Made by a program: the position numbers and the translations under genes | The notes under the pieces: model-generated | The model's input: the letters and a program-made list of their open reading frames with translations, nothing else | What the model was told of the DNA's origin: nothing | Databases searched by the model: none | Shown here: one piece after another, positions 7,586 to 10,332 of the stretch | How positions within the stretch are numbered: the first letter of the stretch is position 1 | How the letters are laid out: the number at the start of each line of letters is the position of its first letter | Assembly: GCF_015689175.1 (NCBI RefSeq) | Contig: NZ_CP065047.1 | Span: 3,286,001-3,350,000 of the forward strand | Direction of reading: 5' to 3' | From: Mycobacterium kubicae | Lineage (GTDB): Bacteria; Actinomycetota; Actinomycetes; Mycobacteriales; Mycobacteriaceae | DNA: 64,000 nucleotides

Positions 7586-8673
7586 CGCTGCGCTCCCGGG
7601 ACCACCGGCACGGTGACCGGCCCGAACTGCTCGCCGGTCGGCGGCACCGGCGCGGGAGCCAGCGCGGGCACCGGCGGCATGACCAGGCCCGGCGGCATGG
7701 CGCCCGCTTGCAGCGGCAGGGGCACCTCAGCCGGTCCCGGAACGGGCTGTCCCGGCACCGGCGGCACCACCTGCGGCACCGTCAGCTGGCCGGGCTGCTG
7801 TCCCGGGAGTTGACCGGGGAAGGGTTGGGCGCCGCCCAGCGTCGTGGAGCCGTCCGGGTTACGCGGTAACAGCTGCGGCCCGGCACGGCCCGGCGGGGGC
7901 GGGTCGTTGGGGCCCGGCATGACGCGGACCGGCACTTCGGGGGGTGCCACGGGCGGCTTGGGCGGTGGCGGCGGACCTTCTTCGGGCAGCTTGGTGTTCA
8001 GCGGCGGCGGGGGCACGCCGTCGGCCGGCTTGGGCGTCCCCACCACCACCCAGTTGCCGTCCGGAGCCTGCACCAGGTGGGCGGTGTCCCGGGTCGGGAT
8101 CATGCCCTGCTTGCGGGCGGCCTCCGCCAGTGCCGGCGCCGATTCGGCTTGGCGCACGTCGCGTTCCAGGGATTCCTTCTGCTGCTGCAGCATCCGGGTC
8201 CGCTCCCGGGCATCGCTGAGGTGGTAGGAGCGTTCGGCGGCGGCGGTGGACAACCACAGCGTCAGACCGAGTCCGACGCCCAGCGATCCGATCACCAGCA
8301 CGACGAACGGGACCTTGCTGATCAGGGTCCGCGGCCGCAGGTCGATGGTGGCCAGGCGAGTGGCCAGCCGTTCGCTCAGCTTGGGCCGAACGACCTTCGG
8401 AGCCTTGGCTTTCCGGGCCTTGGCGCGCGCCTTGGCCTGGCTGGTGTTCTTGGGCCGGGCCGGCCGGTCGACGGGCCGGGAGATCGGGTTGGTCTGTGGC
8501 CCCGAACTCGGTACCCGCGCTTCCCGGTTAGGCGCGGCGGTCCCGCGACCGCGGCGTGCGCCCCCCACCTCAGTCGTCGTACCGGGCCGGGGACGCCTAC
8601 CGGTCCGGGCGGCACCGTCGCGTGCGCTGCGCCGACCGCTGGTGCGGCGCGCCTCTTCGCGCTTGGTTTTCAT
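7582..8673 (-). CDS. FtsL-like septal membrane protein with proline-rich C-terminus (Rv2164c-like)
   Basis: Small bitopic membrane protein in the position of ftsL. Residues 1-115 are basic and rich in Arg, Ala and Lys. One membrane segment ([20 protein letters not shown]) follows, then a short coiled-coil-like stretch ([18 protein letters not shown]) typical of FtsL/FtsB. About 150 residues dominated by Pro, Gly and Gln complete the protein. The C-terminal proline-rich extension is far longer than in E. coli FtsL (121 residues) but expected in mycobacteria. The ATG overlaps the rsmH TGA and the stop overlaps the pbpB GTG. Septal function is inferred from context and topology. Confidence 0.88.
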
Positions 8674-9701
8674 GCGTCGCCCTTCCGGGATCGGGTGTCC
8701 TGACCGTCCTGCTCGATACGTTCCAAGGCCCGTAACCGGACCGGGGCGCTGCGTGGGTTGCGTTCGATTTCGGCCGCATCGGCTCGCTCCGCACCATGGG
8801 TCAGCGACCGGAATCGCGGCCCGTGGCCAGGCAGTTCGACCGGCAAATCGGCCGGTGTCCGGGACGCGACCGCCTCGGCGAAGAATCGCTTGACCATCCG
8901 GTCCTCCAGCGACTGATAGGCCATGACGACGATGCGCCCATGCAGGGCAACGGCTTTCAGGGCGGCGGGGATGGCGCTGCCCAACGCGTCCAGCTCGCCG
9001 TTGACCGCGACGCGCAACGCCTGAAAAGTCCGTTTCGCCGGGTGACCGCCGGTCCGCCGGGCCGGGGCCGGAATCGCTTCGTAGAGCAGCGCGACCAACT
9101 CGGCCGTGGTGTGCAGCGGGGTGCGGGCGCGGCGCCGCACGATGTGCTGGGCGATGCGGCGGGCGAACCGCTCCTCGCCGTAGCGGCGCAGGATGTCGGT
9201 CAGCGCGGCTTCGTCATAGGTGTTGACGATGTCGGCGGCGGTCAGCGGTTCCGACGGATCCATCCGCATGTCCAGCGGCGCGTCCTTGGCGTAGGCAAAG
9301 CCGCGTTCGGCACGGTCGAGCTGCATCGAGGAAACCCCGAGATCGAACAGCACCCCGTCCACCGATTGCACTGCGCCGTGGCCGGACTCGGCCAGCGCGT
9401 CGGGCAGGCCGTCAAACCGGTTGTGCACCAACGTGACTCGATCACCGAAGCGGGCCAGCCGTGAGCCGGCGATGTCCAGGGCAGTGGGGTCGCGATCCAG
9501 CCCGATCAGCCGCAGACCGGGCAACTCGGTCAAGAACCGCTCCGCGTGTCCCCCGGCCCCGAGTGTGGCGTCGACCAGGACCGCACCGGTGCCGTCGGAT
9601 TCGTGCCGGGTCAGCGCCGGAGTCAGCAGCTCCACGCACCGCTGGGCCAGGACCGGCACATGCCCGAAATCGGTTGCGCCGGAATCAGGTTCGTCCACCA
9701 A
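8670..9701 (-). CDS. rsmH: 16S rRNA (cytosine1402-N4)-methyltransferase RsmH (MraW)
   Basis: SAM-dependent methyltransferase acting on C1402 in the 16S rRNA P-site. The conserved body starts at [11 protein letters not shown] and includes [14 protein letters not shown] (SAM site), [27 protein letters not shown] and [15 protein letters not shown]. The start is set here at TTG 9701 (GTG 9698 next), 7 nt after a GGGGAGG Shine-Dalgarno, giving 343 residues, close to the usual 310-345. The frame continues upstream to GTG 9854, the start usually annotated in mycobacteria (about 394 residues). That extension translates across a strong RNA hairpin between mraZ and rsmH, so the shorter form is preferred. 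Confidence is high for identity, moderate for the start. Confidence 0.93.
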
Positions 9702-9708
9702 CGCGACA

Positions 9709-9715
9709 CCTCCCC
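9709..9715 (-). promoter_or_regulatory. Shine-Dalgarno supporting the short rsmH start
   Basis: The minus strand reads GGGGAGG, then 7 nt, then TTG (followed directly by GTG) in the rsmH frame. It is the best ribosome binding site in the mraZ-rsmH junction and lies downstream of the leader hairpin, which supports initiation after the hairpin. The upstream GTG at 9854 has no comparable site, because the mraZ coding sequence ends directly before it. Confidence 0.65.
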
Positions 9716-9760
9716 GGCTCTGGCCGCAAGCTTCCCAGGTCGCCGTCAGCTGAGGTGTCC

Positions 9761-9844
9761 GTGCACCCTGGTCTCTGCCCGAAGGCGCGAACCTGGCGTT
9801 GGGGAAGTACGCCAGGGTCGGTTCGGGCAGAGACCACGATGCAC
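9761..9844 (-). promoter_or_regulatory. mraW RNA motif-like structured leader of rsmH
   Basis: The mRNA between the mraZ stop and the proposed rsmH start folds into one long hairpin. The outer arms are GUGCA/UGCAC. A perfect 15-bp stem follows (UGGUCUCUGCCCGAA with its complement, positions 9769-9783 and 9822-9836). An inner perfect 8-bp stem CCUGGCGU/ACGCCAGG closes a CUUCCCCA-containing loop. The published mraW RNA motif (a candidate cis-regulatory RNA in actinomycetes) sits in the same place, upstream of mraW/rsmH. The identification rests on position and structure recalled from that description; a covariance-model match would confirm it. Confidence 0.7.
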
Positions 9845-9855
9845 AGGCATGCACC

Positions 9856-10287
9856 TCAGAAAATGTCGCCGAGTGCTTCATCGCTGGCCGCGGAGAAGTT
9901 CTCTTCATGGATTTGCTGGTAGTTCTGCCAGGCTTGGGCGTCCCAGATCTCGAGGTAGTCGACGGCACCGATCACCACACAGTCCTTGGACAAGCCCGCG
10001 TAACGCCGATGGTCAGCCGAAAGAGTGATTCGGCCCTGGCTGTCGGGGTGCTGCTCGTCGGTGCCGGCAGCGAGATTGCGCAGGAAGGCCCGGGCTTCGG
10101 GATTGCTGCGCGGCGCTTTGCTCGCCCGGCGCGCCAGTTGCTCGAACTCCGCGCGCGGGTAGACGGCGAGGCTGTGATCTTGGCTCTTGGTGACCATCAA
10201 CCCTCCCGCCAGTGCGTCGCGAAACTTGGCCGGCAGCGTCAGCCGCCCCTTGTCGTCGAGCTTGGGCGTGTAGGTGCCCAAAAACAT
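9856..10287 (-). CDS. mraZ: Transcriptional regulator MraZ
   Basis: First gene of the division and cell wall cluster; a SpoVT/AbrB-like DNA-binding protein that in other bacteria forms a ring and represses its own dcw promoter. The 143 residues begin [21 protein letters not shown], the first of two AbrB-like repeats; the second is the [18 protein letters not shown] segment. The ATG is chosen because GGAGG lies exactly 7 nt upstream and the family starts MFLG; an upstream in-frame ATG would only add ten unrelated residues. The stop precedes the structured rsmH leader. Autoregulation is inferred from the repeats in its own promoter. Confidence 0.96.
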
Positions 10288-10332
10288 TGGGGCACCTCCA
10301 ACCTCGAGCGTTTCCACTCACCCAAACACTTC

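Follow-up and report, generated by a model that had tools for sequence, protein, structure and literature searches.

The mraW RNA motif (RF01746; Weinberg et al. 2010, PMC2864571) is located between mraZ and mraW/rsmH, and the available parts of the literature examined state no function for it. For Rv2165c of Mycobacterium tuberculosis a later start behind GGGGAGG was put forward in 2012 (PMC3526491), and the idea of a later start is thus already in print for that species; the accessible part of the same paper reports 60- and 30-nt RNAs detected from the region (sRNA candidate 1359). The GTG coordinate printed there is not downstream of the sRNA on the minus strand, and the wording of the paper has been followed instead. 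Dual-start "isoform" ORFs have also been described in M. tuberculosis (PMC9094748), and the main text of that paper, as far as it was accessible, does not name Rv2165. Other literature drawn on, likewise in accessible part, comprises PMC3890552, PMC5784534, PMC9386245 and PMC4046766. The open-access literature text contained no mention of the RsmH tail peptide LAYFPNAR and, as judged by title and abstract, no paper on an N-terminal extension of mycobacterial RsmH; in-frame capture of mraW RNA was not found in print within one open-access library.

The window analysed here is a stretch of 64,000 nucleotides of Mycobacterium kubicae (contig NZ_CP065047.1, positions 3,286,001 to 3,350,000), in which mraZ, a hairpin and rsmH follow one another on the minus strand. 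From comparison of sequences we consider it likely that the rsmH frame of mycobacteria has come to include the mraW leader RNA and would be read from two in-frame starts to give a long and a short RsmH.

The mraW RNA between mraZ and rsmH

The features of the locus are as follows.

9859..10317, minus strand: mraZ coding sequence without its stop (PF02381 MraZ, E 1.4e-46)
9856..10317, minus strand: mraZ as the longest ORF (ORF list)
9858-9856, minus strand: mraZ stop codon (sequence)
9877..9906, minus strand: 3' stretch of mraZ with nearly invariant synonymous sites in mycobacteria (codon table)
9879..9881, minus strand: nested ATG in the RsmH frame, 26 nt counted from its A through the mraZ stop
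8670..9881, minus strand: long rsmH reading frame, 403 aa plus stop (PF01795 over residues 72-388; TIGR00006 RsmH equivalog)
9852..9854, minus strand: in-frame GTG directly behind the mraZ stop, a start matching the length of database entry P0001
9749..9852, minus strand: mraW RNA (RF01746; cmscan 76.7 bits, gathering cut-off 50)
9750..9859, minus strand: whole hairpin including the 8-bp outer stem (fold)
9822..9836, minus strand: 5' arm of the 15-bp main stem (sequence and fold)
9769..9783, minus strand: 3' arm of the 15-bp main stem (sequence and fold)
9792..9816, minus strand: apical 8-bp stem with the ACUUCCCCA loop (sequence; loop kept across mycobacteria)
9709..9715, minus strand: Shine-Dalgarno (SD) sequence GGGGAGG of the later start (sequence)
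9696..9701, minus strand: later in-frame start codons TTG (9701-9699) and GTG (9698-9696), their position conserved across mycobacteria

The true start of mraZ is probably a later ATG (MFLGTY) than that of the longest ORF. The closest database entry to RsmH among the matches listed, P0001 (394 aa, 99% identity), has a length that fits a start at the GTG directly behind the mraZ stop.

A sequence-only reading of this DNA had described a hairpin of perfect 15-bp and 8-bp stems, flanked by the mraZ stop and a GGGGAGG-TTG start, and had ascribed it to the published mraW RNA motif; both statements are borne out by the sequence, the fold and the Rfam covariance model. The main stem has 15 perfect pairs (9836-9822 with 9783-9769), the apical stem has eight (9816-9809 with 9799-9792) and closes a 9-nt loop (9808-9800), and a further 8 bp form the outer stem (9859-9852 with 9757-9750), inside which lies the mraZ stop codon. 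In the fold this amounts to a nearly continuous helix of about 30 bp, which beats 200 of 200 dinucleotide shuffles (z = -5.32). The hairpin is the Rfam mraW RNA, matched over 9852-9749, on the same strand as the MraZ- and RsmH-domain genes between which it is located. A plus-strand reading of the hairpin (9752-9857) was set aside, as it gives RF01746 only 44.3 bits, under the cut-off, which is expected for a long hairpin; such opposite-strand matches are a trap for strand calls on long hairpins.

The RNA scored over the cut-off in all 198 sampled genomes of the genus. In an order-wide sample it did so in 94 of 199 genomes, 27 of which belong to the genus of the window, and 147 of 199 had a match at E <= 0.001. 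The apical stem-loop sequence ACTTCCCC is present in 106 of 107 mycobacterial loci, and CTTCCCC in all 46 RNAs examined from the outgroup. Two small mycobacterial genomes (3.3 Mb; G118 and G079, loci L101 and L102) outscore all others of the sample for the mraW RNA (97.6 and 94.8 bits) and retain both the nested ATG and the frame; the stretch of L102 is identical to that of M. lepromatosis (L023).

Reading frame and nested ATG in mycobacteria

To test the idea that the stretch is not coding, 118 mycobacterial loci were gathered (the window, 12 others, 25 named and 80 from genome samples), of which 116 could be parsed, two contigs ending before mraZ, and 108 remained as distinct after removal of eight identical copies. 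Part of these loci are the best RNA matches of their sample, and 30 low-scoring genomes were added on purpose. Measured from the mraZ stop to the His in the HVPVL of RsmH, the spacing ranges over 112 to 295 nt in 35 different lengths, and it equals 1 modulo 3 in 107 of the 108 distinct loci; the sole exception (L022) has Ns within the stretch. Between the mraZ stop and the RsmH core no locus of 107 has a stop in the RsmH frame, whereas the other two frames are interrupted in 72 and 70 of the 107. Parsimony on a tree of 105 loci with 34 lengths requires at least 74 length changes, every one a multiple of three, and the same holds for the 26 changes counted ahead of the loop, the 8 within the RNA and the 67 in the linker; tree errors inflate such counts, and the 34 distinct lengths by themselves require 33 changes. 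Within the RNA the arm-to-loop distances take only the values 27 or 30 and 36 or 39 (four mycobacterial sequences skipped). Across the genus the frame through the RNA is under selection.

Three loci deserve mention in their own right. The linker of L011 holds five in-frame tandem copies, counted by eye, of a 24-nt unit that expand the RsmH tail. In locus L183 (G152, C1:2162200-2168200) mraZ-rsmH occurs twice: the copies have diverged, their loops (1580 and 3759) lie 2,179 bp from one another and their linkers differ, but each copy retains an mraW RNA, the nested ATG and the in-phase frame. L037 (CAMDFY010000046.1), titled as a Bifidobacterium breve MAG, is a mycobacterial mraZ-RNA-rsmH locus, and its bin is probably mislabelled or contaminated.

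The frame begins inside mraZ. All 108 distinct loci have, at the homologous site in the mraZ end, an ATG that is in frame with RsmH. From its A through the stop codon there are 26 nt in 107 of them, and in L172 the ATG is shifted by an in-frame loss of 3 nt. In 39 loci inspected, no shared start codon was seen in the stretch that separates the mraZ stop from the RNA. The Asp codon under the nested ATG is GAT in 106 of 106 loci; at six other Asp sites of mraZ GAC is used in 74 of 96, 54 of 65, 68 of 90, 62 of 106, 53 of 54 and 98 of 98. GAA encodes the Glu following that Asp in 94 of 94 and the Glu heading the stretch in 107 of 107, as compared with GAG in 87 of 106 for a Glu elsewhere in mraZ. 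The synonymous rate pS is 0.089 in the mraZ codons around the nested ATG versus 0.231 upstream in mraZ, and in the 12 alignable outgroup sequences the Asp at this site, where present, is GAC in 6 of 6. Judged on these codons, the ATG is a putative start codon that is nested in the upstream gene and kept by synonymous-site selection, and 9877..9906 is presumed to be its initiation region. The stretch 9877-9906 on the minus strand, roughly 30 nt with nearly invariant synonymous sites, includes the palindrome GAGAACTTCTC and exceeds the length that a start codon alone needs. The nested ATG is nearly devoid of an SD sequence (median duplex -1.7 kcal/mol), which suggests that it would be fed by ribosomes coming from mraZ. 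Two other routes into the frame were considered: leaderless initiation at the nested ATG was set aside, as by eye there is no -10-like element at the right distance, and a +1 frameshift from mraZ into RsmH was dropped by reasoning only, being unnecessary and having no evident slippery codon.

The sequence-only reading had gone from the RNA structure to the conclusion that the stretch is not coding, and this step is contradicted by the phase, the missing stops, the length changes in threes and the invariant ATG; an open in-phase frame with an invariant nested start is not required of an untranslated leader. With an in-phase frame running through it, as judged by comparison of the loci, the mycobacterial RNA would not be an untranslated 5' leader of mraW. 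Probably the mycobacterial mraW RNA is both a regulatory RNA and a translated protein tail.

Outside the genus these constraints are absent. The RNA was found at the gathering cut-off in 47 of 60 scanned outgroup loci, to which one locus from the order sample (L151) was added. The mraZ stop-RsmH distances of these 48 loci fall in the three classes modulo 3 as 17, 13 and 18, the lengths of 46 RNAs as 12, 13 and 21, and the arm-to-loop distances take all values modulo 3 (one outgroup sequence skipped). In 29 of the 48 the RsmH frame is interrupted by a stop within the RNA or beyond its beginning. Only one of the 48 (L063, Nocardia) has an ATG at the nested position, out of phase with the rsmH of that locus, and 47 have none. 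Since phase, RNA length and arm distance are free modulo 3 outside the genus and constrained in mycobacteria, the mraW RNA is the older element, and its capture into the rsmH frame looks like a mycobacterial novelty.

Selection on the RNA, the tail and the later start

RsmH was recognized in the TIGR00006 / PF01795 test with 279.4 bits against a curated cut-off of 154.3 and 378.6 against 27. PF01795 starts at residue 72 of the 403-residue long form, and the alignments to the seven relatives of solved structure that were found begin at residue 68 or later. AlphaFold2 gives residues 1-70 a mean pLDDT of 22-31 (37-row alignment), and the tail of about 70 residues is predicted to be unstructured. 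As far as the listed database relatives show, mycobacterial RsmH is, as claimed, usually annotated as starting ahead of the hairpin: 119 of 120 have at least 377 residues, in a list that leans to long forms, as it holds 120 from the best 7998 candidates scored with the long form as query.

Which level of selection preserves the stretch can be seen from the substitutions. The variant types in 74 distinct RNA cores, all equally long, number 35 nonsynonymous and 12 synonymous, where 149 and 52 would be possible. Among close pairs, the RNA core has a pN/pS of 0.81 (0.48-1.74), the linker, for which only 12 pairs could be aligned, one of 0.92 (0.67-1.37), the nine codons that precede the RsmH core one of 0.56, and the RsmH core itself one of 0.17 (0.15-0.19). 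In the mraZ overlap the ratio is 2.03 (0.69-5.13), and from the mraZ stop to the RNA 1.94 (1.22-4.82). The G+C content of the linker is flat over the three codon positions (0.72/0.70/0.70), showing no coding pattern, versus 0.74/0.49/0.85 in the RsmH core. On these measures the tail peptide is not conserved as protein, and the view that the self-complementarity reflects selection on RNA and not on protein is upheld. The letters would thus be held by the RNA and the phase by translation.

Compensatory changes had been proposed as a further sign of RNA selection, and within the genus they gave no signal. Counted on located arms, pairing among 79 distinct mycobacterial sequences was 0.9162 versus 0.9147 when shuffled, with 109 of 500 shuffles as good, and the helix pairs hardly vary. 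Covariation is seen only outside the genus, where pairing was 0.813 versus 0.772 and none of 500 shuffles was as good (39 distinct sequences, relatedness ignored). RNAalifold on a mixed MAFFT alignment performed poorly, the inner region being misaligned.

The later start is also conserved. The SD duplex ahead of the GTG at 9698 (GGGGAGG) has an energy of -16.1 kcal/mol. In 105 of 106 loci the last 60 nt ahead of the RsmH core contain an in-frame ATG, GTG or TTG, the start of L142 being slightly further upstream, and at this later site the codons interchange (ATG 34, GTG 68 and TTG 3 of 105 loci). An in-frame start with an SD duplex of -6 kcal/mol or stronger is present in 96 of 106 loci versus 33 +- 4.6 in codon shuffles, the counts in the other two frames being 55 and 8; in 10 of 106 the later start has no good SD. 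The GGGGAGG-TTG start of the sequence-only reading therefore stands in part: it is conserved with its SD, but the frame upstream of it is also kept open and in phase. Probably the later start is used too.

Candidate mechanisms and comparison with known systems

According to the reading that we prefer, the ancestral mraW leader RNA would have been taken into the rsmH frame in mycobacteria. Ribosomes would initiate at the ATG nested in the last mraZ codons (9881), cross the RNA and go on into RsmH without a change of frame; the product would be a long form whose N-terminus is extended by about 70 unstructured residues. The second, SD-led start behind the RNA (9701/9698) would yield a short form resembling the RsmH of other organisms. 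Since nested-start ribosomes would contribute RsmH, the frame would have to remain uninterrupted; the RNA would be retained for its fold and loop, as in relatives with untranslated RNA, and the peptide would be a passenger. We infer that both starts are used in cells, the long form being coupled to mraZ translation and the short form independent of it. Points against this reading are the near absence of an SD at the nested ATG, the linker codons without a coding G+C pattern, the high pN/pS in the mraZ overlap and from the mraZ stop to the RNA, the argument of PMC3526491 for the later start alone, and the 10 of 106 loci in which that start has no good SD; the missing signature of selection on protein might equally come from a frame that is translated poorly.

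Two simpler schemes keep one start each. If RsmH came from the SD-led TTG/GTG alone, with the RNA as an untranslated leader and the longer annotation as an error, as the accessible part of PMC3526491 argues, the conserved SD and start codon, the solved-structure relatives aligning from residue 68 or later, the tail free of protein-type selection and the 60- and 30-nt RNAs of M. tuberculosis would all be accommodated. This scheme leaves unexplained the 107 of 107 in-phase distances over 35 lengths, the missing stops and the invariant nested ATG, and it gives no reason why relatives with untranslated RNA show no fixed phase; we regard it as highly improbable. Initiation at the nested ATG alone, with the SD-like stretch behind the RNA as a relic, agrees with the conservation of frame and nested ATG and with the SD being weak or missing in 10 of 106 loci, but the interchange of ATG, GTG and TTG at the later site and an SD frequency far above that of codon shuffles, in a stretch with little protein-type selection, make it unlikely.

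As regards the RNA itself, our inclination is towards processing or a local control of translation. A site processed by an RNase III-type enzyme could split mraZ from the rsmH-fts message, so that uncut RNA would yield the long form and cut RNA the short form only. The nearly continuous helix of about 30 bp and the small fragments of M. tuberculosis (PMC3526491) are consistent with this, as are, in the accessible corynebacterial data, a C. glutamicum mraW 5' end at 2,266,932 inside the motif (2,267,021-2,266,916, by our own reading of the table row), a C. diphtheriae mraW transcription start downstream of the motif, and cleavage of mraZ mRNA by RNase III in C. glutamicum (Maeda 2016 as cited in PMC8247434). 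However, the title of Maeda 2016 puts the cut in the mraZ coding region, outside the motif, and the corynebacterial 5' ends were published as transcription starts; a processing site is possible but rather unlikely. The C-rich apical loop could instead pair with the later SD (ACUUCCCC with GGGGAGGU) and close the later start until opened. Eight consecutive pairs are possible, one of them G-U (loop 9808-9800 with 9715-9708), the loop is invariant, and after correction for SD strength the median residual against 39 control genes of the window is -1.4 kcal/mol (nominal p 0.004). However, any strong SD pairs in this way, that of mraZ giving -9.0 (56 loci) versus -9.85 kcal/mol (106 loci), and outgroups with the RNA (-10.4, n=46) do not differ clearly from those without it (-9.0, n=11; six without a start dropped, relatedness ignored). 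As a mechanism the loop-SD pairing is suggestive only, and we hold it to be very doubtful.

A further view, which we also consider doubtful, makes the RNA a switch between the two RsmH forms: mraZ ribosomes would melt and translate the RNA to give the long form, and when the RNA is folded or cut the later start would give the short one, so that a 16S rRNA methyltransferase would be tied to mraZ translation at the head of the division cluster. If true, an open reading frame would have taken over a regulatory RNA, with selection acting on the frame and not on the amino acids.

Two aspects are highlighted with respect to meaning. On the one hand, the genus-wide test corrects the natural inference that a structured RNA is untranslated; on the other hand, one stretch appears to have its letters held by RNA selection while translation holds the frame only. 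Start usage, processing and MraZ-RsmH coupling offer direct tests of where RsmH begins, a point queried in the literature since 2012, and of what the mraW RNA does; corynebacteria may serve as comparison outside the genus.

The locus can be set against four known systems. With the mraW motif, in the accessible description of Weinberg et al. (2010), it shares score, structure, loop and the site between the two genes, but the mycobacterial copy lies inside a frame kept in phase with rsmH, which sampled relatives outside the genus do not show; the in-frame RNA is taken as a variant setting of the motif, with no ground for its removal from the RNA family. The catalytic part from residue 72 onward is that of the RsmH/MraW methyltransferases (PF01795, TIGR00006), from which the long form differs by its predicted unstructured tail. 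The region, the later start behind GGGGAGG and the small RNAs are those of PMC3526491, the accessible part of which treats the upstream part as intergenic, whereas the comparison made here shows an upstream frame under selection in the genus. Two in-frame starts giving a long and a short form are shared with the isoform ORFs of PMC9094748, as described in its accessible part; in contrast to these, a conserved structured RNA is located here between the two starts, and the first of them is nested in the upstream gene.
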